Shown here piece by piece: positions 7,148 through 22,253 of a stretch of DNA of 47,462 bases. The DNA comes from Candidatus Azobacteroides sp. (GTDB lineage: Bacteria; Bacteroidota; Bacteroidia; Bacteroidales; WRGA01). Each line of letters opens with the position of its first letter. Positions within the stretch are counted from its first letter, which is position 1. The translations under genes and the position numbers were made by a program. Under the pieces are notes generated by a model. The model was not told the DNA's origin and searched no databases. It saw nothing but the letters and a program-made list of their open reading frames with translations. The stretch lies in the NCBI GenBank assembly GCA_021201815.1, contig JAJQEC010000074.1, positions 1-47,462 on the forward strand. Reading direction: 5' to 3'.

Positions 7148-8596
7148 ATGCAAGAAAATCCTGATGATATAATTAAAGATGTAACCAATGGGGAATACAA
7201 GTATGGTTTTGAAACAAAGATCGATACGGAAGTGATTCCTCAGGGGTTGGATGAATCGGTGGTACGCCTGATATCGGCAAAGAAGGAGGAACCGGAGTGG
7301 ATGCTCGAATTCCGCCTGAAAGCTTTCCGGTACTGGCAATCTATTAAGATGCCGACATGGGCACACCTGGATATTCCGGAAATAGATTATCAGGCGATTA
7401 GTTATTACGCAGCGCCAAAGAAAAAGGAAGGCCCGAAAAGCCTCGACGAAGTGGATCCGGAATTATTGAGAACGTTTGACCGCCTGGGTGTTCCCCTCCA
7501 TGAGCAGAAAATATTTTCCGGTATGGCGGTGGATGCTGTTATGGATAGTGTTTCCGTCAAGACTACTTTTAAGGAAACCTTAATGGAAAAAGGAATCATT
7601 TTCTGTTCTTTCAGCGAAGCGGTAAAGGATCATCCGGATCTGGTAAAGAAATATTTGGGGACAGTGGTACCTTATAAAGATAATTTCTTTGCAGCATTAA
7701 ATTCTGCAGTATTCAGTGATGGTTCTTTCGTTTATATCCCGAAAGGAGTACGCTGTCCGATGGAATTATCCACTTATTTCCGGATCAATGCCATGAATAC
7801 CGGACAGTTTGAAAGAACCCTGATTATTGCGGATGATGACAGTTATGTAAGCTATCTGGAAGGATGTACAGCACCGATGCGGGACGAAAACCAGCTTCAT
7901 GCCGCCATTGTAGAAATCATTGCACTGGAAAATGCAGAAGTCAAATATTCTACGGTGCAGAACTGGTATCCGGGAGATAAGAACGGAGTAGGAGGGATTT
8001 ATAATTTCGTTACGAAAAGAGGAATCTGCAAAGGCAATAATTCCAAGATTTCCTGGACACAGGTAGAAACCGGATCTGCGATTACCTGGAAGTATCCTTC
8101 CTGTATTTTGCGGGGAGATAATTCAGTCGGAGAATTTTATTCGGTAGCAGTGACAAATAATTACCAGCAGGCAGACACTGGAACGAAAATGATCCATCTG
8201 GGAAAGAATACCCGGAGTACGATTGTATCGAAAGGTATTTCCGCTGGGAAAAGCCAGAATAGCTACCGGGGACTGGTAAAAGTTGCTCCTAATGCAGAGA
8301 ATGCACGTAATTTTTCCCAGTGCGACAGTTTATTGCTGAGTGATGAATGTGGAGCACATACTTTTCCGTATCTGGAAGTAGCCAATGAAACGGCAATTGT
8401 GGAGCATGAAGCTACCACGTCAAAGATCAGTGAAGACCAGATATTTTATTGCAACCAGCGGGGAATTCCGACAGAAGATGCGGTGGGCCTTATTGTAAAC
8501 GGCTATGCCAAAGAGGTACTGAATAAACTTCCGATGGAGTTTGCTGTAGAAGCACAGAAATTGCTTCAGATTACGCTGGAAGGCAGTGTAGGGTAA
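7148..8596 (+). CDS. sufB: Fe-S cluster assembly scaffold SufB
   Basis: This 482-residue protein matches SufB throughout its length. It is the scaffold subunit of the SufBC2D complex, on which Fe-S clusters are built in the cytoplasm. Features seen include the N-terminal [26 protein letters not shown], the central beta-helix with [12 protein letters not shown], and the C-terminal region [13 protein letters not shown] and [10 protein letters not shown]. These last two contain the Cys and Glu/His residues that receive sulphur and bind the nascent cluster in the characterised SufB. It starts the suf cluster. A lipoprotein gene then sits between it and sufC, and sufD and sufS are not present downstream in this window. 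Confidence 0.97.
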
Positions 8597-8637
8597 AATT
8601 GATCGATTGGAATTTGGGAAGAAAACAAAATAAGGAT

Positions 8638-8711
8638 AAAGTAAAAGGTAAAAACCAAAGAGTTTTCTCTTACCCCTTTTGCTTTTTACCTTTTATCTTT
8701 TACTTTATTTG
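8638..8711. repeat. AT-rich long inverted repeat between sufB and the lipoprotein gene
   Basis: AAAAGGTAAAAA (8643-8654) pairs exactly with TTTTTACCTTTT (8683-8694). The pairing extends imperfectly outward (TAAAGTAAAAGG with CTTTTATCTTTTACTTTA). It is made of iterated TAAAAGG/CCTTTTA words, like the hairpin at 22254-22351. It may act as a weak terminator or RNA stability element within the suf cluster. Confidence 0.6.
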
Positions 8712-8730
8712 TAATTAATTCCTGAATAAA

Positions 8731-9492
8731 ATGAAAAAAACAAATGTTCTAAAAATAAGTGCCCTCTTTTTTGTAAGTGTACTCCTGCATGGATGTTTTT
8801 CTGCAAGAACTGCCATAGAAAAGTCGGCCGCTAAATACCCGATTGTGCAGAACGATGTGTATAAGGATGTGCCTTATGATGCAAACGGGGCTTATCCGAA
8901 TGTCCATTTTATCTACACCCGGCAACGGGAAGAAGCAATGAATTTGCCTAAGATACTGAATGGATACAATGGCTTTATCCTTCGGGTATGGATCAATAGT
9001 CCGTCAGGGACAGGAGTGCAGGACGGAGAACTGATAGAAATTAAACAAACCGATGGAGAATGGTCGGGACGGTTTTACAGCATGAAAACCCAGTTCTATC
9101 CGACCAGAAACTGGGACAAGGTAATGGAATACCAGGGATATGATATCCGGCCGGAAAATCTTACCTGGAATGAAGTGATGGCCTTTCTGGTAGAAGAAGG
9201 GATTTTTGAACTGAAATCCCTGGACCAGCTTGAAGCTTATCAACAGTTACCGGCTGCGGAAAAAGGATATCCTACAGGAAGTTCGGTCATCAGTTTTGAA
9301 GTGGCTACAACCAAAATGTACCGCTTTTTCCATTATTTTGCCTTGCCGAAATTTCTGGAAATAGATGAAGTCCGACAGGTAGATACCATAGTGCGGTTCC
9401 TGACCAGAGAATTCAATGTGTATGAAGTCCTGAACGGTAGCCCACAAATAATTATATATGATTTAAGAGAAGATAATCAGATACAGAATTAA
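8731..9492 (+). CDS. Hypothetical lipoprotein encoded between sufB and sufC
   Basis: This 253-residue protein begins with a lipoprotein signal peptide: MKK, a hydrophobic core, then LLHGC with the lipidated Cys at about residue 22. The mature part is soluble, mixed alpha/beta and without a motif I can name. It includes a [20 protein letters not shown] segment and ends in [14 protein letters not shown]. It should be anchored to a membrane, probably on the periplasmic side. It lies 11 bp upstream of sufC on the same strand, so the two are likely co-transcribed, yet an exported lipoprotein has no known part in cytoplasmic SufBCD. It is therefore a passenger gene in the suf cluster. Confidence 0.8.
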
Positions 9493-9503
9493 ATACAGCA
9501 ACA

Positions 9504-10256
9504 ATGAGTATATTGGAAATAAAAGATTTACATGCTTCCATTAACGGAAAAGAGATATTAAAAGGGATCAATCTGACGGTAAATCCCGGAGAAGTCCATG
9601 CCATCATGGGGCCTAACGGGTCAGGTAAAAGTACGTTGTCTTCCGTACTGGCAGGAAATCCGGCTTTTGAAGTAACATCAGGCGAAGTGACTTTTAACGG
9701 CAAAGATTTACTTGAAATGTCTCCGGAAGCCCGTTCCTGTGAAGGTCTATTCCTCAGTTTCCAGTATCCGGTGGAGATTCCGGGGGTAAGCATGGTCAAT
9801 TTTATGCGTACAGCCGTTAATGAACACCGTAAATACAAAGGACTTGCTCCGTTGTCAGCTTCTGACTTCCTGCGCATGATCCGGGAAAAACAACAACTGG
9901 TGGAAATGGATAGTAAATTGACCAACCGTTCTGTCAATGAAGGTTTTTCCGGTGGCGAAAAGAAGAAAAACGAGATTTTCCAGATGGCCATGCTGGAACC
10001 GGTTCTCTCTATTCTGGACGAGACAGACAGCGGGCTGGATATCGACGCGTTGCGTATTGTAGCCAATGGGGTAAATAAACTGAAAACACCTCAGAATGCA
10101 ACGATCCTGATTACCCATTACCAGCGTTTATTGGATTATATCACACCGGATGTGGTGCATGTCCTTTATAAAGGCCGCATCGTCAAAACTGCCGGAAAGG
10201 AACTGGCACTGGAACTGGAAGCAAAAGGCTACGACTGGATTAAGGAGGGAATTTAA
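9504..10256 (+). CDS. sufC: Fe-S cluster assembly ATPase SufC
   Basis: This 250-residue ABC ATPase is the standard length for SufC, which dimerises on SufB and SufD and drives cluster assembly. Walker [10 protein letters not shown] is at about residues 34-42. The SufC-specific signature [13 protein letters not shown] is at about 145-157, directly followed by Walker [15 protein letters not shown]. The D-loop and switch His ([13 protein letters not shown]) are intact. The downstream partner sufD, normally adjacent in Bacteroidales, is not found; a terminator follows 72 bp after the stop codon. Confidence 0.97.
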
Positions 10257-10328
10257 TCATGTGCCAGTATGATTTATAGTAATAAAATAATTGGTTACTA
10301 ATTTGAAAGATTGGTAATTTTAAGGATT

Positions 10329-10377
10329 GCCACAATGGAAGTTTCGGCATGACCGAATATTTCATTGTGGCTTTTTC
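10329..10377 (+). terminator. Rho-independent terminator after sufC
   Basis: GCCACAATG (10329-10337) pairs with CATTGTGGC (10363-10371), with an inner TTCGG/CCGAA stem, and is followed by TTTTTC. It closes the suf transcript directly after sufC. Confidence 0.85.
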
Positions 10378-10837
10378 TTATCTCCTGAATATTCGTTTTC
10401 TTTTCCTTTTGATTGAGTTTATGTATTCCTTTCTGATTGAGAATTTCTTTCCAATAAAATTATTCAGTCTTCCATTTATTCTATAATACTGCTAAATAGT
10501 CTCTTGTCTCTTCGTGTTTTTTACTTATCTCTTTGATTTCTATAATGTATTTCCGTAATTAATCGATGTTCGGGGAATTAATCTTCATACTTTCATGAAT
10601 GTGTAACGGGTTTGGTTTTATAATTCAAAAGGATTGGTTTTGTGATTTCTAGGAAAGAAGGTGTGGTAATAGTTTTTATGTGGGATGCTAAAAAATGGTG
10701 GGCTGGGTTGGGTTCTTGGCGGGAATGGAGCAGAAAGTAGCTGGAGAAAGTCAGTCTGCTATAGGCGTAAAGGTGAATGTGATTGTGAAGGAGGGGTTGT
10801 TGGTAGTTGAAAGGGTGAGGAAGTAAATACGTCCTAA
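10378..10837. other. Non-coding stretch at the left edge of the accessory island
   Basis: No ORF with coding character is visible. The first part is T-rich, and around 10680-10825 it becomes G-rich and purine-rich on the plus strand (GGTGGGCTGGGTTGGGTTC). It may hold decayed sequence at the junction between the core suf locus and the inserted island. No tRNA or clear attachment repeat was found. Confidence 0.5.
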
Positions 10838-10897
10838 TAAAGTAAACTAAACAGTTGTAATAGAACCTCGTCTCTTGAACCTATTTAGTTTACTTTA
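10838..10897 (-). terminator. 14-bp perfect inverted repeat downstream of the radical SAM gene
   Basis: TAAAGTAAACTAAA (10838-10851) is exactly complementary to TTTAGTTTACTTTA (10884-10897), with a 32-nt loop. It lies 20 bp past the stop codon of the minus-strand operon. A terminator for that operon is the simplest reading, but the perfect arms could equally be a recombination or insertion scar at the island edge. Confidence 0.6.
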
Positions 10898-10916
10898 CTT
10901 ATTCATAAACTTTTAT

Positions 10917-12869
10917 TTACTTTTTATTCTTTCTTAATTTATAGGTTGGATTTTTATCATATTCCTGTTTAAGATTATACAATTCTGTATCAGGTGTAAT
11001 AATATCTTTTCTGTAGTTTGTATAAAAGTTTAATAATCTTGCAATTTGAGGATGGCTATTTTCTATGGGAGTAGTTCCGAAATTATTGTTGTGAATGATA
11101 GATAAGGTATACTGCCAGTCTTTTTCATCTAAGTCCTGTTTACATCCACTCCAACAATCTCTCCAGTTTTGGGTAGATGCTTCATGTCCGATTTCTTCCA
11201 ACCATTCAAAAAAATATCTATAAAGGATAAATGTTTCAGGCATTTCCAGTAATTCCAAAAATTCTTTTTCAGTTTTACCAAAAGCTTTGTGAAAAAAGGT
11301 TTTTCCCCGACCAATTTTACCTTTTGTACTGTTTAATATAGCTTGTACAGCACGGATATATTTCCTGTTCCAATGTTTGCCTATATAATCTCTGTTGTGA
11401 CTATATTCTCCAAAAATAGGGTGATATTTCATGGGAAAAGAATAAATATTAATACTTAATTCTTCACATAATTCAATATTTATCTTTAATCGTTCATATA
11501 AATCAATAGGTTTGTCATTATAATTATAGAGTAAATAGTTAGAAAAATCTTTAATTCCAACATTTTTACTCATACGTATAGCTCTGTCATATTCTTCGTG
11601 ATTTCTTATATTATCAAAGGCTATACGTAAGGGACGAATGTTAATTTTTCCTAATAATTCTACTTTTTCTTCATTAAATAAGCGGGCATCTACTCCTTGA
11701 TTAAAATCTACAAAGCGAAGCTTTGAGCTAGCTTTGTAATGCTTTCTATATATATCTTTTATTTCCTCATAAGCTTGTAATAGATTTTCTTTTTTAGAAG
11801 TCAATAATTTGAGAATGTGATATTGTTTAAATATTTTATAAACTTCATAAGACTCCTCTTTATCTTTCAATTTTTTATAAAAAGAAAATAACAAAGACTG
11901 GGTTTTACGAATATATGCACGGTCATTAACTCCTTCTTTCAGATTACGAATGGCAATTGCTAGATGGTCTACCTGAGTATATTTAGCTCCTTTGCTAAAA
12001 CCACAATCAATAATGTTTTGTATTATTTCGGGAAGATCGTCGGAGGCTAAAATGTTATTATCCATTAATAATAAATCTTTCTGATCTCCATATATTTTTC
12101 TTACTTCTTCGATACGTTCTTTTAAGGGAATGTAAGGGATATAATTGGGCTCAAGAATAGGTACTGCACAAAATGAACATTTCCGGATGCAACCTCGGGT
12201 AGTATACCCATAGAAAGCATTTGTCATTGGATATTTGTACTCTATTTCGTCTAATATGGAATAATCTAAGGGAAGATTGTCGATGATATCTAGATTTCCC
12301 TCGTCTAACTGTCCGGGTGTATTCAATATTCCTTTGTAAGGTTCAATTCCGGTAGCGTTTCTTAGTTCCTCTGTCTGGATAGAGGCTAATACACCTCCTA
12401 CCATTAATAATCCGTCGGGCTTAACTAAAGTCTTTGCAAAATTAATGGTTTCAATGGTGATATTCCAGTAAAAGGTAAATAAGGTTGTGACAAAAACCCG
12501 GTCCCAATCAGGATTTCTTTCATATTCTCTTCTCCAATAATAATCCTTGTAGTTTATCAGCCATTGGGTTAAAACAATCTCTAATTCAGATTTATCTAAC
12601 TGTAAAGCCACTAGATATTCCCTTTTTCTTGTTCGTATAAAATCTACAATGATATCTTTCCGGATATACCAATCAATTGTATCGTCTATTTCCGTTAATT
12701 TCTTAATGCATTTATCTGCAATTTGCTCTATTATGAATTGTTTTAAATTCCCTTTGTAAAATACGACATTGTCTCCCATTCGTTTATGGTAAGTCGCTAT
12801 TTTCATTAAGCCTATGGGTGGATATTTATTTGCATAATTTGGCTCTAAAAGCAATATGTTTCTTGCCAT
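10917..12869 (-). CDS. Radical SAM protein with degenerate B12-binding-like N-terminus, fourth gene of a HerA-NurA operon
   Basis: This 650-residue enzyme carries the radical SAM motif CIRKCSFC (Cys about 227, 231 and 234, CxxxCxxC) after TTRG. It should therefore bind a [4Fe-4S] cluster and cleave S-adenosylmethionine. The N-terminus (ILLLEPNYANKYPPIGLMKIATYHKRMG) resembles the Rossmann part of B12-dependent radical SAM proteins. The cobalamin-binding DxHxxG is not visible, so B12 use is doubtful. Residues 250-560 contain long helical insertions, and a second core segment (LRFVDFNQGVDARLF, about 380) completes the barrel. Its ATG overlaps the stop codon of the GHKL gene by one base (TAATG), which suggests translational coupling. 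The substrate is unknown: nucleic acid, nucleotide or peptide are all possible. The AT-rich codon use differs from the suf genes. Confidence 0.88.
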   Translation of the reverse strand: MARNILLLEPNYANKYPPIGLMKIATYHKRMGDNVVFYKGNLKQFIIEQIADKCIKKLTEIDDTIDWYIRKDIIVDFIRTRKREYLVALQLDKSELEIVLTQWLINYKDYYWRREYERNPDWDRVFVTTLFTFYWNITIETINFAKTLVKPDGLLMVGGVLASIQTEELRNATGIEPYKGILNTPGQLDEGNLDIIDNLPLDYSILDEIEYKYPMTNAFYGYTTRGCIRKCSFCAVPILEPNYIPYIPLKERIEEVRKIYGDQKDLLLMDNNILASDDLPEIIQNIIDCGFSKGAKYTQVDHLAIAIRNLKEGVNDRAYIRKTQSLLFSFYKKLKDKEESYEVYKIFKQYHILKLLTSKKENLLQAYEEIKDIYRKHYKASSKLRFVDFNQGVDARLFNEEKVELLGKINIRPLRIAFDNIRNHEEYDRAIRMSKNVGIKDFSNYLLYNYNDKPIDLYERLKINIELCEELSINIYSFPMKYHPIFGEYSHNRDYIGKHWNRKYIRAVQAILNSTKGKIGRGKTFFHKAFGKTEKEFLELLEMPETFILYRYFFEWLEEIGHEASTQNWRDCWSGCKQDLDEKDWQYTLSIIHNNNFGTTPIENSHPQIARLLNFYTNYRKDIITPDTELYNLKQEYDKNPTYKLRKNKK

Positions 12870-14419
12870 TATTTTTTATTAAGCTCCTTTACGACCAACT
12901 TTTTAAGTTCTTCAATTAATTTTTTGTCATCTTCTCTGGGACATTTTTTTACCATTATTGAAAATACTTGTCTTAGTAAGTCTTTATCGTGTTTTGAATA
13001 ATTTGTCAGATTATCTACAATATCTTTTTCTTCTGTTTCTGTATTTTGATTATCCTTTTTGTCTAACGAGGATAACGTGGTTGTATTTGTTACTGCAGCA
13101 TATGAAGAACTGTTTTTATAGTTCTTTACTAATTTCCTTTTATAGATATTTATTATTGTTTGCCCAACATTATTCTGTGCATTTTTAGATTTTTCTATCT
13201 TTTCTAATTTCAATTCAGCTTCCTTAACTTTATCAACAGTAACTTGTCCTGTATTTTCGTACTTTCTGGCATCTGCTACTTTCTCAACGGCTTTTTTAAC
13301 ATCGTTAGCAAGATGATATAGTTTTTTCAGCTCATCAAAATGTTTTTTTAAATGAACTTTAAGCCTTTCTGCTTCTGGGGTAGGAGCTAAACCACTTCGA
13401 GAGCCCTCTGGATTTAAATTTTCATGGACTGCATGCAATTCTCCAACAAAATAATTATTACCTCGAGACTCACTAAAATACTGATTTAATATATCTGGGC
13501 CTCCTACAAGAATATTGTGTTTTCGTAATCTTATTCCTCTGTTTTTTACAGAAGGAGGAATAGCTCTGGTAAATTCTGTAATTCCATACCATCCCCATGC
13601 TAATAACCCATAATCGTCATCTGTAATGCTGAAACATTTTAATGAATGGATTTCGTCTTCTGTACCTTCTACTTTAAGGTTATATGTTTTACGAATGTCA
13701 ACATTTTTATTTACCGATATCTTATATGATTTAATTTGATTATTAAATTCTTCAAATTCTTCTTTAAAAGATGGTTTTACCAATTTTGATTTAAATGGCA
13801 TTGTGTAATCTATGGGAGCCACTTGTTTCAAATAATCACAAATTTGAGTTTCATTTAATAGTTCCGGATACTCTCTCCGTACTCCTTTTAAGGTGGCACA
13901 AAAGTAATGTTTATCTTCTGTTTCGTCAAATGTTTTTATTGCTGTTATTGCATCTATTACCTCTGTTGCGCAACTATGATCTTTTTTATCGTCAATAATT
14001 CTCTGGGCTTTTTCTACATCAAAGGTAATTTCAGTTGCAATAGCTTCTCCTTTATAAGAAGTTTTAAAGGTTAATTCCCTACAATAACCGGCTCCTACTA
14101 ATCTTCCAATTCCATAAAAACCAATTGTATCTACTCCATCTTTATCTGAGTCAGCTATATCTTTTAATTTATGTGCAACTTCGTCAGTTTTTATTCCGGT
14201 TCCGTTATCAGTTATTTTGACAACTGCATTTTTTGAGTCTATTTTTATATAGATATGTCCTTCTTTATTAGATATTATTCCTTCCCTAACCGCATCGTTG
14301 ATGGAGTCACATGCGTTTTGAATGTATTCCCGGTAAATCGTTTTACAATCAGGATACATTGAAAACATTAATATTTTTAATATATTTTTTCCAATTCTTG
14401 TTTTATGTTCGTTTTCCAT
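12869..14419 (-). CDS. GHKL (Hsp90/MutL/MORC-type) ATPase, third gene of the operon
   Basis: This 516-residue protein has the Bergerat fold in its first 200 residues. The N box is EYIQNACDSI (Glu about 31, Asn 35, Asp 38), the G1 box DNGTGI (about 71-76) and the G2 region GFYGIGRLVGA (about 100-110). The layout is closest to the Hsp90/MORC type, in which ATP binding drives dimer closure. Residues about 375-420 look coiled-coil (VKEAELKLEKIEKS). The C-terminal 100 residues are polar and charged (KDKDLLRQVFSIMVKKCPREDD). It lies 9 bp downstream of the HerA-like gene and overlaps the radical SAM gene by one base. In defence islands such ATPases often act as sensors or switches; that role here is inferred from the neighbours. 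Confidence 0.87.
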   Translation of the reverse strand: MENEHKTRIGKNILKILMFSMYPDCKTIYREYIQNACDSINDAVREGIISNKEGHIYIKIDSKNAVVKITDNGTGIKTDEVAHKLKDIADSDKDGVDTIGFYGIGRLVGAGYCRELTFKTSYKGEAIATEITFDVEKAQRIIDDKKDHSCATEVIDAITAIKTFDETEDKHYFCATLKGVRREYPELLNETQICDYLKQVAPIDYTMPFKSKLVKPSFKEEFEEFNNQIKSYKISVNKNVDIRKTYNLKVEGTEDEIHSLKCFSITDDDYGLLAWGWYGITEFTRAIPPSVKNRGIRLRKHNILVGGPDILNQYFSESRGNNYFVGELHAVHENLNPEGSRSGLAPTPEAERLKVHLKKHFDELKKLYHLANDVKKAVEKVADARKYENTGQVTVDKVKEAELKLEKIEKSKNAQNNVGQTIINIYKRKLVKNYKNSSSYAAVTNTTTLSSLDKKDNQNTETEEKDIVDNLTNYSKHDKDLLRQVFSIMVKKCPREDDKKLIEELKKLVVKELNKK

Positions 14420-14428
14420 AGGTAAATT

Positions 14429-16108
14429 TTATCCGTTGGGGAATTGCTTGTATAAAGGTTTAGGGAATTTTATATTGACAATTGACCGAAGAGCCGGATT
14501 TGAAATAATATATTCACCGGGTGTTAGTCGAGTCATCATATTCTGATATACTTTAGGAATATAGCGATAATCTGGTTTAGATACTTCAATGGCATTTGTT
14601 CTTCCATAAGCCTGTGTGGCACAATTTCCTTTAACACGATCATGGATAGCGCTCCGGAATTGTTCTACTGAAAATAGAATAATACCTAAGGAACGTCCTC
14701 TTTCTGCAATATCTAATAGTTGCCGTAGAATAGGAGAGTTTTTTGGAATATCTGTGGATGCATATTTATTTAGTTCATCGACAAACATAATTACCTTGTC
14801 TGGTATATTGTCTCTCTCGTTTCCTAATTTCATCTCATAGATTGCACGGGCTACATCTCCAAAAACAAAACTTTGGGTGCTTTCATCCAGGCGAGCGATA
14901 TCAATTACCATTACCTGGTTTGCTGTTAACTTTTCTGAAATTTCTTTTGTTAAATTGACTTCTTTCTTATCTATATGTATGGTTTGATGAAATATTGGAT
15001 TTTTAATAGCCTTACTAATACAACGTTTGAATTTACGCCAGCTACTTACTTGTATCTCATTTTTATCTCCTCCACCAGAGGCTGTTTTTGTACAATTATC
15101 AATTTGTTCTACTAGCGTTTTCCATTTATTAATTCCTTTAAAATTGCCTCTTTCATCCATAATAAAATTAGCACAACTTTCTAATGTTCCGCTACTATCA
15201 TCTTCATTGGCCAATAAAAGATCTAGCTTTTCCTTTGTCTTTTCAAATGTATATTTATAAGAAAAGGCTTTTCCTAAATCTTTTTGATGTTTTACATCAG
15301 CTGGAGTAGCATATGATTGTACTTCTTCTTGTTTTGTATCTTGTGAATATGGATAATAGTAATGTACATTTTTAAAGGGTTCAACAGATAATCCTAATGA
15401 TTTATAGATTTCTTTTTCCTTTTTAGACAGTTCTTTATTCGGCTCATCTATTGCCATTAAATCGCGACCTTTTACATTAAAGAATACAAAGGCTACACTT
15501 TTTTCATTTTCATCTTTAAATTTGTGTTGAAGTGCATTTAATAAGAACATTGAATAGGACGTTTTGGCTGCTAAACCAGAAATTCCGGATATATTTATAT
15601 GTGCTCCGTCCGGACCAATAAGAAAGTGTGAGTTTAATTCTACTTTAACTTGTTTAGTCTTTTCTCCTTTATACATTTCCAGATATCCACATACTAGCGG
15701 ATTTTTGACATTATCCAGTCCTAATGCTGTTTTTATATCTTTTTCATTACAAAGCAAAACCTGTTTTCCGTTTAAAACCGGAGTGTAGATATTATCGGTA
15801 TTACATATAACTCTTGCTTTTACGTAATTCATACCCAACCTATTCATGTTCCCAATGTCTTTATCCATTTCCCCAAAATCACTGGATATATAGCTTGTGA
15901 AATGACTTGTAGCATCAGTTACATGGTTGATTTCTTCCACTACACCGTATGTTATAGATGCTTCCTTTTCGTTTGGGCTTACATGTTCTACTTTAACAAT
16001 ATCAAAAGGGCTTAATATTCTTCCTTTATCAGTCCAAAAATAAAATTCATCAATTGTAGATGGATTTTTTTCTGTTGCGGATATTTTCCCTATTACATCC
16101 ATATCCAT
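14429..16108 (-). CDS. HerA-like (DUF87/FtsK-HerA superfamily) ATPase
   Basis: This 559-residue protein has an N-terminal HAS-barrel-like region (about residues 5-150, with DIVKVEHV and SITYGVVEEI). A hexameric-motor ATPase core follows. The P-loop GISGLAAKTS (about 175-184) has Ala where Gly normally precedes the Lys. Walker B VIMFVDELN is at about 439-447. Near the C-terminus, ERGRSLGIILFSVEQF and GNCATQAYGRTN match the sensor and arginine-finger region of HerA. HerA motors pump DNA and work with the NurA nuclease in end resection. Here the NurA-like gene ends 1 bp before this start, which strongly supports a HerA-NurA pair. It could be a divergent DUF87 ATPase working in a different complex. 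Confidence 0.88.
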   Translation of the reverse strand: MDMDVIGKISATEKNPSTIDEFYFWTDKGRILSPFDIVKVEHVSPNEKEASITYGVVEEINHVTDATSHFTSYISSDFGEMDKDIGNMNRLGMNYVKARVICNTDNIYTPVLNGKQVLLCNEKDIKTALGLDNVKNPLVCGYLEMYKGEKTKQVKVELNSHFLIGPDGAHINISGISGLAAKTSYSMFLLNALQHKFKDENEKSVAFVFFNVKGRDLMAIDEPNKELSKKEKEIYKSLGLSVEPFKNVHYYYPYSQDTKQEEVQSYATPADVKHQKDLGKAFSYKYTFEKTKEKLDLLLANEDDSSGTLESCANFIMDERGNFKGINKWKTLVEQIDNCTKTASGGGDKNEIQVSSWRKFKRCISKAIKNPIFHQTIHIDKKEVNLTKEISEKLTANQVMVIDIARLDESTQSFVFGDVARAIYEMKLGNERDNIPDKVIMFVDELNKYASTDIPKNSPILRQLLDIAERGRSLGIILFSVEQFRSAIHDRVKGNCATQAYGRTNAIEVSKPDYRYIPKVYQNMMTRLTPGEYIISNPALRSIVNIKFPKPLYKQFPNG

Positions 16109-16109
16109 A

Positions 16110-17273
16110 TTAAAAGAGGTTTAAAATTATATTATTATCCATGTAGTGAGACTTACAGAAAGACTCAGTTAGGAAAACCGGATATAAATGATTGGCCCAT
16201 CTTGTGTCTGCTCCATAGCAAACCGGATATGCTTCATTTATTAGGTTGGCACTTATTGTGTTTATCAGATCAGTATCTAGTAGTTGATTTCCCAACATAA
16301 CCATTTCTACTTTTACAATATCTGAAAAATGTGTTTCCCGGAATTCTTTTCTGCGAAGCCTTAAATACCAGACGGCAAAGTTAATATCGTCAGTGGTGGA
16401 ATATTTGTATGCTTTTGTTCTTTCAAAAGGCCTTAAGTCAGCAATTGTACGTGATAATTTGTCCCCTTCGTAATCTAGTAATAATTCTGGGTCAAATGAC
16501 TTGGAAACACCAACTACATGTTGATAATTAGATCGTAATGCTAGCCATTGTAGTTCTGTAAGATTAGAGAAGCGTGGGTTATATTCTAATGAGCCATCTT
16601 TAATAAGAAAAGCTTCATCATGTAATTTATTTTTGGAACAAAGTTTTGCAACCATGCGTTGTTCTTCATCTGTCATTTCAGCCTGTATTTTTGCTATTGC
16701 ACGGTTTCTGCAATTGTCTTTGTCTTTTAACTCAAATCCATCTGTTTTGTATAATAAAAGTTTATCTAGTTTAATATTTCTTTCCTTAATAAACTCGACA
16801 GTTGATATTTCCTTATTTAGCTGCTCGCGGTAATCCCGTAAAAAGTTTTCTCCTTCATCATTGTCATCAAAATCTTCTGGCAGGGATAATACTATCTTAT
16901 ATTCGAGATCGGTTTTCTTAAATTCATTTCTGCTTCTTCTTTCACAGCAACCTACAACAAATTGACCTGCAACAATTGGAAAGATCTTTGCTCCGATGCC
17001 AATGTCATCTACCTGATAGATACGACGAGAGCCATCTAAAAAATATTTGAATATAGGATATTCTTTGGTTGATACCAGTAAATCGGCAACTGAAACTGTT
17101 TTTTTTCTGCTGTGGTCTGTTTCAGCGAATACACTCTTTTTAAAAGTAGAGATGGGTTTGTCGTCGTAATTTAGGTTATCATTGTTTATTGTGTCCAAAG
17201 AAAATTTTCTTGTTTTGTAACAATAAAATTTCCCATCAGATTTTTCGTGTATAAAGTTAAGGATACGTCCCAT
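16110..17273 (-). CDS. NurA-like nuclease domain protein, first gene of the four-gene operon
   Basis: This 387-residue protein shows the spaced motifs of the NurA/RNase H-fold nuclease family. The first acidic motif is LDGSRR (Asp about 80), the second KDGSLEYN (Asp about 226). A GVSKS segment (Lys about 258) follows, and near the C-terminus AYPVCYGADTRWANHLYPVF (about 348-367) is the typical end of the family. NurA resects DNA 5' ends in complex with a HerA motor, and the HerA-like gene follows after one base. It is longer than archaeal NurA at the N-terminus. A -7-like element lies about 60 bp upstream. The assignment is by motif layout and gene context, so it should be tested by a profile search. 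Confidence 0.75.
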   Translation of the reverse strand: MGRILNFIHEKSDGKFYCYKTRKFSLDTINNDNLNYDDKPISTFKKSVFAETDHSRKKTVSVADLLVSTKEYPIFKYFLDGSRRIYQVDDIGIGAKIFPIVAGQFVVGCCERRSRNEFKKTDLEYKIVLSLPEDFDDNDEGENFLRDYREQLNKEISTVEFIKERNIKLDKLLLYKTDGFELKDKDNCRNRAIAKIQAEMTDEEQRMVAKLCSKNKLHDEAFLIKDGSLEYNPRFSNLTELQWLALRSNYQHVVGVSKSFDPELLLDYEGDKLSRTIADLRPFERTKAYKYSTTDDINFAVWYLRLRRKEFRETHFSDIVKVEMVMLGNQLLDTDLINTISANLINEAYPVCYGADTRWANHLYPVFLTESFCKSHYMDNNIILNLF

Positions 17274-17667
17274 AATTTTTAGATACCAGTGTTGTTCAGG
17301 GTATTTAAATTCTTATCTTAATCAGCATTTGCAAAAATATATAAATTTTTCAATTATCATCAGGAAAGATAAGAAAATGATTGACTTACACTAATATATT
17401 TAGTAATTATTTTTTAGTATATATGATTGGGGAATTAATAAACAGATATTTTATTTAAAGAAGGATTATTGTTTGTCATATTGTTGAAAATAAATATTTT
17501 AATCAAACGTAAATAATAAGATGAATATATTTTTGAAAATAATCTGATTATGTGTGGAGGAATGATTGTTTCAGATACTGAAATGTATATGAAGTGTCTC
17601 GTATTAATTTATATATTTGCATGTCTATCAAATAATGTTAATTAAGCCGTATTGGCGCAATCACCTT
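17274..17667. promoter_or_regulatory. Shared divergent promoter region of the HerA-NurA operon and the McrB gene
   Basis: This AT-rich region has no gene. Facing left, a minus-strand TATTTTTG (17332-17339) matches the Bacteroidetes -7 TAnnTTTG for the nurA-like operon. Facing right, TATATTTG at 17612-17619 matches it for mcrB and would give a leader of about 40 nt to the ATG at 17668. The -33 elements are not clear. Both systems are therefore read from one control region. Confidence 0.45.
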
Positions 17668-19992
17668 ATGGATAATACTAAACAACCGAATAATCGAGAT
17701 TACGATTTGTCGTTAATTAATAAAAACCATGTTTTATCAGCCCTAAATGAGATCGACCAAAAGGGGATTCCACCCAATGCTCATTCCTCTACCTACGATC
17801 TTATTTATAATGGAGAACCTTATCCTCCTAAGCTTGTATTATCGTGGGCGTATAAACATGCTACCGGGAAGGAGTTAGAGAGAAATCTTTTTGAGGGTGG
17901 GTTAAATACTCCTTGTTTTAATACACTAGAAAAGCTTGGATTTACCATTGTTCTTAAAAACTCTAATATAGAATTACTTTATCAAAAAGAAGTAGATTAT
18001 ACGGCCTTGACAGAGTGTTTTACTGTAGTATATGATGTATTGCCAAGATTTATTGAAATACTTGGCGATATAGAGCCTGGAAAACGAAGAAAAATTAAAG
18101 TAACAATTGAGGAAAAAGATTATGAAGTAGATTTTAGACAAATCAATACTACTCAAGGCGCAAATGTTTATCAAATTGTATATCCTGTAAAAGGAGACGT
18201 ATCTTCACATCTTATTTCTCTTTTTCCCGAAGCATATAAGATTTTAGAAGAAGAACGTTCTAAAGCAAATGGAAAAAAGTCTTATGCAAAACTTCCAGCA
18301 GACAAGAAAGAGTATCTCTTAATCTATTACGACAAAAAGAATAAAAAATTAGTTTGGCAAAAAAAAGAGAACATGGAAAGCTTTTATCCCCATTTACAGC
18401 AGTTTATAAAGCAAGCAGACAAAGGAGGGGATCAAACAACAAAACAATATGCAAATGAATATAAAGGGTTGGAGGTTGTTACAAGTTTTGGGAAAGGGAA
18501 TGCTGCAACTATTCCATGGATTTCATTTCTTTATGAAGGCCAAACTACACAGAATGGGATATATCCTTGTTTCTTATATTACAAACAACAAAAGCTATTA
18601 ATATTAGCTTATACTATGAGTGAAACTTTTCAAGCAGCTTATACTTGGGAATTGCCAGAAGAAACGGAAACAATTACTAATTATTTCAAAACAAATAACC
18701 TAGGTAAACCGAAGCGTTATGGTGCCTCTTATATCTTTAAAGTATACCACACCTCTTCCCCCTTAAACCCCCAACAAATAGACAACGACTTACAAGAAAT
18801 CATCGACATTTATAAAAATCTAATGGCAAAAAATACAGCAAGCGATAATAACGATGCAGACATTACCACCCCACAACCCTTCACCCTATCCCGCACTTCC
18901 GATATCCGCCGTACCGGACTCCTTTTTAATCCCGACCTTGTTAATCGGTATGCCATCTCTCTACTCACCAAACCCTTTGTGATCCTGAGCGGATTATCCG
19001 GATCCGGCAAAACAAAGCTTGCCCTGTCCTTTGCCAAGTGGCTGACCGGAAAGAGCGAACAGGTAAAAATCATCTCCGTGGGGGCAGACTGGAACAACCG
19101 CGAATACCTACTCGGATATCCCAATGCCCTACACGAGAAGCAATACGTAAAACCCGATAACGGGGTGCTGGACTTTATCATCCGGGCATCCAACGATCCG
19201 GACATGCCTTATTTCCTTATTCTCGACGAGATGAACCTTAGCTATGTCGAGCGGTATTTTGCCGATTTCCTCAGTACCATGGAGTCACGGCAACCCATCA
19301 CCCTGCATCCCGGACCCGGCGTATGGGACGATAAAATTCCGCCGACCCTGACCTTACCTGAAAACCTTTACATCACCGGAACCATCAATGTCGACGAAAC
19401 CACCTATATGTTTAGTCCCAAGGTATTAGACCGCGCCAACGTCATTGAATTCAGGATTAATGCCGAGGAAATGACCACCTTCCTTGCCGAATGCAAGCCG
19501 TTGGATGCCGATGCTGCCGACCACCTGGGGGCATCCATGCAGAAAGACTTTGTAGAGCGAAGCAAAAGCAATAATTTAGAAAGCGATCCCGACACCAATA
19601 ATATTTTGCTGGATTTCTTCACAGCACTCAAAAAAGCAGGCGCAGAATTCGGGTATCGCACTGCATCAGAAATATACCGGTATATCACCATTGCCAAGGA
19701 GCTTGAAGCATCCGATGGATCAGATGAGGAAGAAGTAAAACGAAAAAACCACCGGATCGATGTCGTTATCATGCAAAAACTCCTGCCTAAGCTCCATGGA
19801 TCCCGGAAAAAGATCCAGCCGATCCTCCAAACCCTTTGGAACCTATGCCAGAAGAAAGGAGATAAGACGACAATCGAAAAAGAAGATATCCGGTTTGACG
19901 AACAGTTTATCTATCCGCTCTCTGCCGCCAAAATATGGCAGATGAATAAAAACGCCAAAGACAACGGGTTCACCAGCTATGCCGAAGCTTGA
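17668..19992 (+). CDS. McrB-type restriction protein: DUF3578 specificity region plus AAA+ GTPase-like motor
   Basis: I prefer the ATG at 17668 (774 residues). The reading frame stays open back to a TTG at 17617, but that TTG overlaps the likely -7 promoter element. An N-terminal segment (YNGEPYPPKLVLSWAYKHATG) and the DUF3578/MrcB-type region (GNAATIPWISFLYEG, NGIYPCFLYY) form the DNA-recognition half, to about residue 370. A further unassigned stretch lies between them. The motor has Walker A GLSGSGKT (about 442-449), Walker B FLILDEMN (about 516-523) and the conserved TGTINVDETTYMFSPKVLDRA. With the next gene it should form a modification-dependent or foreign-DNA-targeting McrBC-like complex. 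The first 1,080 bp or so are AT-rich and the rest GC-richer, a sharp switch near 18740-18890. Confidence 0.9.
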   Translation: MDNTKQPNNRDYDLSLINKNHVLSALNEIDQKGIPPNAHSSTYDLIYNGEPYPPKLVLSWAYKHATGKELERNLFEGGLNTPCFNTLEKLGFTIVLKNSNIELLYQKEVDYTALTECFTVVYDVLPRFIEILGDIEPGKRRKIKVTIEEKDYEVDFRQINTTQGANVYQIVYPVKGDVSSHLISLFPEAYKILEEERSKANGKKSYAKLPADKKEYLLIYYDKKNKKLVWQKKENMESFYPHLQQFIKQADKGGDQTTKQYANEYKGLEVVTSFGKGNAATIPWISFLYEGQTTQNGIYPCFLYYKQQKLLILAYTMSETFQAAYTWELPEETETITNYFKTNNLGKPKRYGASYIFKVYHTSSPLNPQQIDNDLQEIIDIYKNLMAKNTASDNNDADITTPQPFTLSRTSDIRRTGLLFNPDLVNRYAISLLTKPFVILSGLSGSGKTKLALSFAKWLTGKSEQVKIISVGADWNNREYLLGYPNALHEKQYVKPDNGVLDFIIRASNDPDMPYFLILDEMNLSYVERYFADFLSTMESRQPITLHPGPGVWDDKIPPTLTLPENLYITGTINVDETTYMFSPKVLDRANVIEFRINAEEMTTFLAECKPLDADAADHLGASMQKDFVERSKSNNLESDPDTNNILLDFFTALKKAGAEFGYRTASEIYRYITIAKELEASDGSDEEEVKRKNHRIDVVIMQKLLPKLHGSRKKIQPILQTLWNLCQKKGDKTTIEKEDIRFDEQFIYPLSAAKIWQMNKNAKDNGFTSYAEA

Positions 19993-22253
19993 TGAGTAAA
20001 TCGATACACATATCTATTTCACTCGAAAACGGAGAGACCGTTTCGCTGGAGATCTATACGGAAAAAGAAGAAACTGTCCTGCGTGTCATCCATCCGGAAG
20101 ATGCCTCTAAAAACGGGGAAGCGCCTTATCAGCTTGAAGAAGGGAAAATCTATGAATACCGGTTAACCGAAGGCTACCGGCTGGAAAGATCCGGAATAGT
20201 CCGTATGTCTCCTATGGAAACACATCGGGGAAGCATTCATACGAATATCTATGTCGGAACATTAGCCGTCAATGTTTATCGCGATGAAGATTTGAGGCAT
20301 CCCGTAGGAAATATTTCTTTGGAAATCTGTTCCCGAAAAATGGATTATCAGAACGATTACCGGGATATGCTAACGGATATCACCCGGCATTGCACCGACC
20401 TGCTATTGCGGCAATCTTCTCCTGTATCCCAGTCTTTCAAAGGAGATATTCACCACGACTCGAGAACCCTCTACCAACGGTTTGTTTTTGTGGAGTCCTT
20501 GGTGCGTTCGGAATCATTTGCCGATGCCTTGCATCGCATTCAGACGATGCCTGTAAAACGTTGGGAAACGGTAGAGAGATCCCGAAATATCTCCAATATC
20601 CGGCGCGTCAATCGTTCGGTGATGCGTCAGATAATTACCAGTCCCAACCGCATTACCCTGCATCCGCAGCATGCGTTGTCCGATATGTTAGGTTCTTTAC
20701 CGAATCATGTGAATATCGTGGATAAACAGGAAACGACCGATACGCCCGAAAATCGATTTATCAAATATGTGCTCGAAACATTCCTCCATTTCACCCTCCT
20801 TGTACATCAGCATAAGGATGCCGAGGAACGGTTGAAACAGGAAGCACTTGCTACTTCCGAATTACTGGAAAAATACCTTGCGATGCCTGTCTTCAAAGAA
20901 GTATCCCGACTGGATATTATTCCTCTCAACAGCCCTATCCTGCAACGGAAAGAAGGCTACCGGGAGGTATTGCAGGCGTACCTAATGTATGACATGGCTG
21001 CCAGCCTGGTGTGGAAAGGCGGGGAAGAAGTCTACCGGGGTGGAAAGAAAGATGTAGCTGTCCTCTACGAATACTGGTTGTTTTTCCAGTTGCTGGAACT
21101 CATTGAAGACGTGTTCGGAGTGAAGTCCCTGTCACTCGACCACCTGATACAACCCACGGACGAACAGACTCTGGAACTGAAACTGCGTCGGGGTGAGTTG
21201 AAAATGGTAGCCGGCTCTTTTGTTTCCCATCACCGGAAATACAACCTGGAGTTTTATTACAACCGTACCTTCGGGATTGCCGGGAACTATCCTGATTCCG
21301 GTAGCTGGACCCGCAAGATGCGTCCGGATTATACCTTATCTATCTGGCCCGATGGGTTATCTCAGGAACAGGCGGAAGAAAGGGAGACCATCGTGCACCT
21401 GCATTTCGATGCCAAGTACAGGATAGATGCCTATAAAATCTTTAACGATATAGATCCCGGCGCAGAAAAAGAACAACAGAAGCGGGGAGTTTACAAGCGT
21501 GCCGACCTGATGATTATGCATGCCTACAAAGATGCGATCCGCCGTACTGCCGGGTCGTATATCCTGTATCCGGGTTCGGAAGAAGCGAACTTTTCCAGTT
21601 TTCACGAGATATTGCCGGGACTGGGTGCTTTTGCTGTATCTCCTTCTACTAACTACAAAGCAGGCCTGAAACAGTTCCTGGAGGATGTGGTCTTGCACCT
21701 TGGTAACCGTACTTCGCAACGGGAGCAGCATTCGTATCATATCCGTGAAACGTTCTGCAAGGAGCCCGAACCGGCTATGGAAGGAATACTTCCGATCGAT
21801 AATGACACCTTATTTCCGCACACTACGTTTGTACTTGTCGGGTATTACAAAAGCCAACAATACCTTGAATGGATTTTGAAAAATAAACTGTATACCACCC
21901 GCACGGGCAATGATAAAGGAGCCTTGCCTCTTTCCCGGAAAACGACCGAAGCCCGGTATTTGTTACTTCATACCAGGAACGAACTGGTAACAAACAGGAT
22001 ATATGAATTGTCTACTGATGGGCCGGAAATCATCACCAAAGAACTTCTGGAAGGAATGGCTTATCCTTCATCGTCGAAAGATATCAAACCCTATTACTTG
22101 GGATATCGGCTGGCTTCCGATACGCTTTTATCGGAGGAATTCGGCCATGTCCACTGGGATATCCGCAAATTGCCGGGATATGAAACGGGATGGAAATCGG
22201 GCTATCCTTTTGTGGTGACGTTAGAGGAACTGATGAAAGGAAAATGCAAATAA
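19992..22253 (+). CDS. McrC-type nuclease subunit (DUF2357, PD-(D/E)XK)
   Basis: The start is taken as the ATG at 19992, which overlaps the mcrB TGA by one base (TGATG); a TTG just upstream at 19989 is possible. The 753-residue protein has an N-terminal beta-rich DUF2357-like part (to about 250) that would contact the McrB ring. The C-terminal nuclease domain carries MRPDYTLSIW and, 20 residues on, HLHFDAKYRID: the PD...DxK catalytic pair of the PD-(D/E)XK superfamily. It is much longer than E. coli McrC, as is usual for the DUF2357 type. It cleaves DNA when the McrB motor translocates. Codon use matches the motor half of mcrB and the downstream core genes, not the AT-rich left part of the island. 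Confidence 0.9.
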   Translation: MSKSIHISISLENGETVSLEIYTEKEETVLRVIHPEDASKNGEAPYQLEEGKIYEYRLTEGYRLERSGIVRMSPMETHRGSIHTNIYVGTLAVNVYRDEDLRHPVGNISLEICSRKMDYQNDYRDMLTDITRHCTDLLLRQSSPVSQSFKGDIHHDSRTLYQRFVFVESLVRSESFADALHRIQTMPVKRWETVERSRNISNIRRVNRSVMRQIITSPNRITLHPQHALSDMLGSLPNHVNIVDKQETTDTPENRFIKYVLETFLHFTLLVHQHKDAEERLKQEALATSELLEKYLAMPVFKEVSRLDIIPLNSPILQRKEGYREVLQAYLMYDMAASLVWKGGEEVYRGGKKDVAVLYEYWLFFQLLELIEDVFGVKSLSLDHLIQPTDEQTLELKLRRGELKMVAGSFVSHHRKYNLEFYYNRTFGIAGNYPDSGSWTRKMRPDYTLSIWPDGLSQEQAEERETIVHLHFDAKYRIDAYKIFNDIDPGAEKEQQKRGVYKRADLMIMHAYKDAIRRTAGSYILYPGSEEANFSSFHEILPGLGAFAVSPSTNYKAGLKQFLEDVVLHLGNRTSQREQHSYHIRETFCKEPEPAMEGILPIDNDTLFPHTTFVLVGYYKSQQYLEWILKNKLYTTRTGNDKGALPLSRKTTEARYLLLHTRNELVTNRIYELSTDGPEIITKELLEGMAYPSSSKDIKPYYLGYRLASDTLLSEEFGHVHWDIRKLPGYETGWKSGYPFVVTLEELMKGKCK

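Follow-up and report, generated by a model that had tools for sequence, protein, structure and literature searches.

A NurA-HerA-GHKL-radical SAM gene cassette with a probable role in bacterial defence

In the window, that is, the entire 47,462-nucleotide stretch of DNA analysed here, a NurA-like nuclease, a HerA-like motor ATPase, a GHKL ATPase and a radical SAM (rSAM) enzyme are encoded in a four-gene cassette that very probably has a defence role. Our main reading, to which we assign a probability of about 0.5, is that the cassette spreads horizontally and acts against invaders in the manner of a restriction-modification system: the rSAM enzyme, together with the GHKL protein, would make a self-mark on DNA, and NurA-HerA would degrade unmarked DNA. 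The rSAM enzyme could put a radical-derived chemical mark on the DNA of the host or, alternatively, on some factor bound to it; driven by ATP, the GHKL protein would aid the rSAM enzyme as a DNA clamp or as a switch for assembly, and HerA-NurA would load on, and degrade, incoming DNA that lacks the mark. The mark is suggested by the exchange of partners described below; DNA as the rSAM substrate, a protective effect on self and the part played by the GHKL protein are likewise inferred. If the rSAM enzyme indeed makes a DNA mark, bacteria would possess a type of DNA modification that is introduced by radical chemistry, along with a new means of telling self from foreign DNA.

The operon and its setting in the window

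All four genes lie on the minus strand, starting with the nurA-like nuclease gene (16110..17273; 387 aa), which is followed by the genes for the FtsK/HerA-type motor ATPase (14429..16108; 559 aa), the GHKL ATPase of the Hsp90/MutL/gyrase type (12869..14419; 516 aa) and the rSAM enzyme (10917..12869; 650 aa). When the open reading frames were re-derived, the single-strand layout and the gaps of +1, +9 and -1 bp given in the initial annotation proved exact. From the gene layout and the sequence, the operon promoter is presumed to lie in the intergenic region (17274..17616) from which the operon and an McrB-like gene diverge. Just 3' of the rSAM stop codon, there is an inverted repeat (10838..10897; 27-nt arms, 81% complementary, 6-nt loop) that is a possible, albeit weak, candidate for the transcript end; no T-run is seen there. 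A search with Rfam found no RNA families in the operon region.

The four-gene block is AT-rich, with a GC content of 0.32-0.33 versus about 0.40-0.47 on both sides. To the right of the operon, and divergent from it, Pfam and PADLOC searches identified a pair of genes (17617-22253) coding for an McrB-like protein (MrcB_N, 8e-10; PADLOC PDC-M26A, 2.4e-53) and an McrC-like protein (DUF2357, 4e-43; PDDEXK_7, 2e-26), which supports the original description of AT-rich, defence-type surroundings next to an McrBC-type pair.

On the other side of the cassette (region 7148-10917 of the window) lies sufC, so that the order is sufC, then the cassette and the McrBC pair. In a congener, G395, and in a relative from the same order, G398 (loci L266 and L267 for the two), sufC is directly followed by a SufB/SufD-type gene, presumably sufD. 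A search of the whole genome from which the window comes detected no sufD, the only match being SufB at 25%. Insertion of the cassette accompanied by the loss of sufD, or else an assembly gap, is possible at this site. No direct repeats bounding an element were found around the cassette.

Identity of the four proteins

The HerA-like protein has no strong family in Pfam, NCBIfam, PADLOC or PHROGs, with no Pfam family assigned and weak matches only. In a search of the PDB, a profile built from 13 sequences matched HerA of Deinococcus radiodurans (7f6d_B) with E=4.3e-132, and the other HerA-type chains at 5e-11 or weaker. The P-loop of the window protein, GISGLAAKTS (residues 175-184), is one residue longer than the canonical Walker A motif, and the extra residue is fixed in the family, with the consensus GISGLA(A/S)KTS(Y/F). 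The Walker B motif, DELN (residues 444-447), and an ERGRSLG motif are present as well; across the loci compared, the P-loop, Walker B and ERGRSLG motifs were found in 79/80, 80/80 and 79/80, respectively. The profile match and the Walker motifs bear out the HerA identity.

For the NurA-like protein, the initial annotation held that failure to match any nuclease profile would count against the assignment. At the level of Pfam, this was indeed the outcome, and NCBIfam, PADLOC and PHROGs did not yield a family either, but comparison of structures overturned it. A profile of 65 sequences produced one PDB match at E values up to 10, namely, D. radiodurans NurA (E=0.013). The AlphaFold2 model, although of modest confidence (pLDDT 62.6), had as its best Foldseek match the same protein (DrNurA, 7f6d_G; E=4.7e-10), followed by TdpB (3.5e-4) of TdpAB, an anti-phage nuclease of a DNA-phosphorothioation system; this second-best match is in keeping with the main reading. 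VIA searches with this model gave Z scores of 14.3 for 7f6d_G, 13.1 for the NurA structure 2ygk, 11.2 for TdpB (8wfd, chain 8wfd_G) and 9-10 for other NurA structures; the top nine matches (Z 14.3 to 9.4) were all NurA-type nucleases, that is, NurA, TdpB and the putative nuclease TM1739. The predicted fold, RNase H-like as in NurA, thus supports the NurA assignment. The gene is conserved in 79 of the 80 loci, and the conserved residues of the protein include D80-G81, K225-D226-G227-S228 and W359/H362-L-Y-P, where D80 is invariant and D226 nearly so among 65 sequences. A tblastn search of plasmids with NurA gave no match. HerA and NurA, accordingly, belong to families whose members assemble into a DNA pump, a hexamer, combined with a dimeric nuclease.

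The third protein is confirmed as a GHKL ATPase by a match to HATPase_c_3 above the Pfam cut-off (1e-8; HtpG, 5e-11) and by the presence of the N, G1 and G2 boxes (REYIQNACD at position 30, DNGTG at 71 and GFYGIG at 100).

The radical SAM identity of the fourth protein is likewise borne out, by motif and by fold. The CX3CX2C motif (CIRKCSFC, residues 227-234, in the window protein) is present in 66 of 67 sequences; the Pfam Radical_SAM match (1.5e-5) is below the cut-off. In the AlphaFold2 model (pLDDT 92.2), an N-terminal Rossmann domain of the B12-binding type is combined with a partial TIM barrel, two helical insertions and a helical C-terminus, and the closest structures found with VIA are AprD4 (Z 22.0), MgmA (20), TsrM (20), MiaB (19.5) and OxsB (19-20). 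Given these neighbours, the predicted fold is that of the B12-type and MiaB-type radical SAM enzymes, with the layout of a B12-binding-type domain plus a radical SAM domain. The classical cobalamin motif DxHxxG is absent in all 67 sequences; TsrM-type enzymes can bind cobalamin without this motif, and AprD4, the best fold match, does not use cobalamin. A profile of net charge by domain revealed no strongly basic DNA-binding region in the rSAM protein, which speaks against the main reading.

The closest rSAM folds span enzymes that act on protein, RNA and small molecules, and the rSAM enzyme of the cassette could act on any of these. An alternative is defence without DNA marking: the rSAM enzyme would modify a protein, or make a small signal or antiviral nucleotide, the GHKL protein would be a sensor switch, and HerA-NurA would be the effector released upon infection, acting abortively or by direct degradation. 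The proximity of the fold to MgmA, a protein methylase, and to AprD4 and TsrM, which act on small molecules, speaks for such a mechanism, as does the fact that GHKL ATPases are switch proteins and that a second GHKL protein with an uncharacterised partner is often inserted in the operon. A viperin-type product is not favoured, given a Z score of only ~10 to viperin versus 22 to AprD4 and the lack of a PADLOC match for the rSAM protein. More generally, the partners that are common across the different architectures (Pbe, the DISARM core, DpdB/DndB) belong to DNA-modification systems, and we consider defence without a mark to be rather unlikely.

Distribution of the cassette and neighbouring genes

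When one genome per species was scanned, HerA relatives were found to be encoded in at least 512 genome stretches, which points to a common but apparently unnamed system. We retrieved the best 80 of these. Among them, all 64 loci with enough flanking sequence share the order NurA-HerA-GHKL-rSAM, counting locus L059, where NurA is located 1.9 kb upstream. The median intergenic gaps of the four-gene loci are 3, 6.5 and -1 bp. The originally proposed single transcription unit is supported. The distance matrices computed for the four proteins are correlated (r=0.67-0.93; 63 loci), and none of 500 permutations reached the observed value. The four-gene arrangement is conserved far beyond chance.

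The isolates among the best 80 loci include members of Bacteroidota, Clostridia (Roseburia faecis, Clostridium sp., Clostridioides difficile) and Desulfobacterota (Desulfogranum marinum), and the metagenome-assembled genomes, some of which may be mislabelled, include Acidobacteriota, Ignavibacteria, Lentisphaerae, Treponema and Cloacimonadota. Phocaeicola barnesiae DSM 18169, Chryseobacterium defluvii and Flagellimonas meridianipacifica DSM 25027 are examples of carrier strains. Within Bacteroidota, the close HerA clade occurs in 5 of 395 genomes, and a search of 390 genomes for the full-length rSAM protein identified exactly the same five. The cassette is absent from both congeners examined (0/2). 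The only addition to these five, locus L120 (2294-2956), encodes a 220-aa C-terminal remnant of the rSAM protein without the other three genes, which we read as a decayed copy.

The flanks of the cassette loci contain genes of type I restriction-modification systems, AbiEii, AbiLi and NucC, as well as relaxase and integrase genes. PADLOC families numbered 175 among 137 flank proteins versus 45 among 124 random proteins; the difference is in the expected direction, in a crude comparison with an unmatched control where one protein can match many models. The neighbourhood survey called for in the initial annotation thus found the four-gene association conserved across several phyla, with defence genes nearby. 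Some of these genes are located within the operon itself: in five loci (L020, L058, L065, L082, L086), PADLOC detected nsnB (1.4e-63) and nsnC (4e-9), with a second GHKL gene, between the GHKL and rSAM genes. Another insertion at the same position consists of a second GHKL gene (HATPase_c_3, 5.7e-18) and a gene for a 330-aa uncharacterised protein. In 15 loci (L031-L046, L075, L099), the rSAM gene is followed by related large genes, of about 800 aa, a representative of which contains RNA_pol_A_CTD and Sigma70_r4-like domains.

These observations bear on two alternatives to immunity. Under the first one, the cassette would be a DNA repair or end-resection operon in which HerA-NurA act as in Deinococcus and the GHKL and rSAM proteins are accessory factors for damaged ends. 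The D. radiodurans protein is the closest relative of the HerA motor, and distant HerA relatives are found on plasmids in operons with SbcD and SbcC (loci L012, L013, L014 and L016), mostly preceded by a NurA-sized gene. The distribution of the cassette is, however, patchy, with horizontal spread and absence from congeners, defence genes lie inside the operon, and rSAM-GHKL is paired with restriction modules elsewhere; because of the patchiness and the defence neighbours, we regard a repair function as very unlikely. Under the second alternative, the cassette would belong to a prophage or an integrative element and serve the maintenance of its own DNA or competition between elements. Relaxases and integrases are present near some loci, the complete cassette occurs on a small number of viral contigs, and Marinitoga camini virus 1 (L010, 6927-10753) encodes NurA-HerA beside a short radical SAM protein on the other strand. 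Against this possibility, an alignment search through 2.9 million viral contigs recovered the HerA clade in just 4, compared with the at least 512 genome stretches, and no integrase gene adjoins the window copy; a module of mobile elements is, in our estimate, quite improbable. A scan of the viral contigs with a single HerA sequence gave no match.

A separable rSAM-GHKL module and comparison with known systems

The initial annotation took the occurrence of the four genes apart from each other as evidence against a system. For NurA-HerA of this clade, no such separation was observed, these genes being always accompanied by GHKL and rSAM, but rSAM and GHKL also occur where NurA-HerA is missing, beside at least three other sets of DNA-restriction genes. 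The rSAM-GHKL pair is thus a separable, exchangeable module, and it is this module that becomes the unit of interest. The separable rSAM relatives mostly represent a shorter form without the two insertions.

The first group of partners is of the Pbe type. In loci L170 (532-12411) and L171, PbeA (3e-243) and PbeC (6e-226) are encoded alongside rSAM, GHKL and two additional genes; in L169, no GHKL gene adjoins rSAM, and L173 ends after rSAM. The homology of the genes common to these four loci was checked, and in the one locus tested, neither of the two additional genes was matched by the PbeB or PbeD model. DndC is absent from all four genomes, and its profile, TIGR03183, is absent from the genome containing the window and above the cut-off in 1 of 13 carrier genomes. 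Pbe cores are coupled to phosphorothioation (PMC6459918), and in CxC/Pbe cores cytosine methylases can be recruited in place of phosphorothioation (PMC10853773), a precedent for swapping the modification enzyme. The PbeA-PbeC operons with rSAM but no dndC are, possibly, a non-phosphorothioate Pbe system.

A DISARM-type pairing is represented by a single locus on a viral contig that ends shortly afterwards (L181, 858-12586), with DrmA (7s9v_A, 5e-51), DrmB (9e-8), rSAM and GHKL, along with a NERD-type helicase and an Mrr-like gene, both recognised by eye. In a third arrangement, a DpdB/DndB-like gene (PF14072) forms operons with rSAM and GHKL on alphaproteobacterial plasmids of Novosphingobium, Bradyrhizobium, Rhizobium and Roseomonas (L108-L112) and in L175; a DndB-like gene is paired with rSAM in L171 as well as in L175. 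Pairs of PIN_8 and GHKL genes, or SNF2/ParB genes, are located near the plasmid loci, the Roseomonas locus lacking the PIN pair. The operons of this type, mostly with PIN_8-GHKL pairs, look like another unnamed system. On two phage-like contigs (L179, 6364-9617; L180, 6254-9623), rSAM follows a gene identified by eye as ParB-like, with no nuclease recognised beside it; this combination could be a phage-made counter-mark.

Read most simply, these gene neighbourhoods suggest that several unrelated restriction machines depend on something provided by rSAM-GHKL. Given that the partners, namely, Pbe, the DISARM core and DpdB/DndB, come from DNA-modification-based systems, a DNA self-mark appears to be the most economical candidate, and the protective modification by the rSAM enzyme, as first proposed, gains support from the position of rSAM-GHKL next to other restriction modules. 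The GHKL protein may be the licensing switch that was first suggested. More tentatively, rSAM-GHKL might be a portable DNA-marking module of a super-group of modification-based immunity that has not been known so far, a module that has joined up, independently each time, with machines of the HerA-NurA, Pbe, DISARM-core and DpdB/DndB-PIN types, and the mark might be a new DNA modification chemistry.

Among the known systems, the HerA-NurA end-resection complex (D. radiodurans, 7f6d; Sulfolobus; Thermococcus) consists of the same two families encoded by adjacent genes (HerA, E=4e-132; NurA, Z 14.3), whereas in the cassette the pair is joined by GHKL and rSAM, and its distribution is patchy and its nature mobile, unlike that of a core repair operon. 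TdpAB(C) (PDB 8wet, 8wfd) likewise combines a HerA-type motor with a NurA-like nuclease; its partner is TdpC, presumably the DNA-phosphorothioation enzyme of the Tdp system, rather than rSAM and GHKL, the HerA of the cassette is nearer to Deinococcus HerA, and TdpA is not among the HerA sequence matches. In SIR2-HerA and DUF4297-HerA, a HerA ATPase and an effector similarly share an operon, but the effector of the cassette is NurA, and none of the four proteins contains a SIR2 or DUF4297 domain.

The window operon itself lacks the Pbe genes of DndCDEA-PbeABCD (CxC ABC-ATPase/DndE), the Drm genes of DISARM, which normally carries a DNA methyltransferase, DpdB/DndB-type genes of the ParB superfamily, and the NsnB and NsnC homologues of Menshen (NsnABC). 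The PADLOC 2023 and NCBIfam 2026 collections contain no model covering the core proteins, and no description of HerA, NurA, GHKL and radical SAM in combination was found in the open-access literature searched (preprints and subscription journals being outside the search), which, within that literature, upholds the original statement that no system of this composition has been described. The cassette is, apparently, a widespread and undescribed form of immunity, a variant both of HerA-nuclease and of modification-type systems, in which the modification chemistry may be new.
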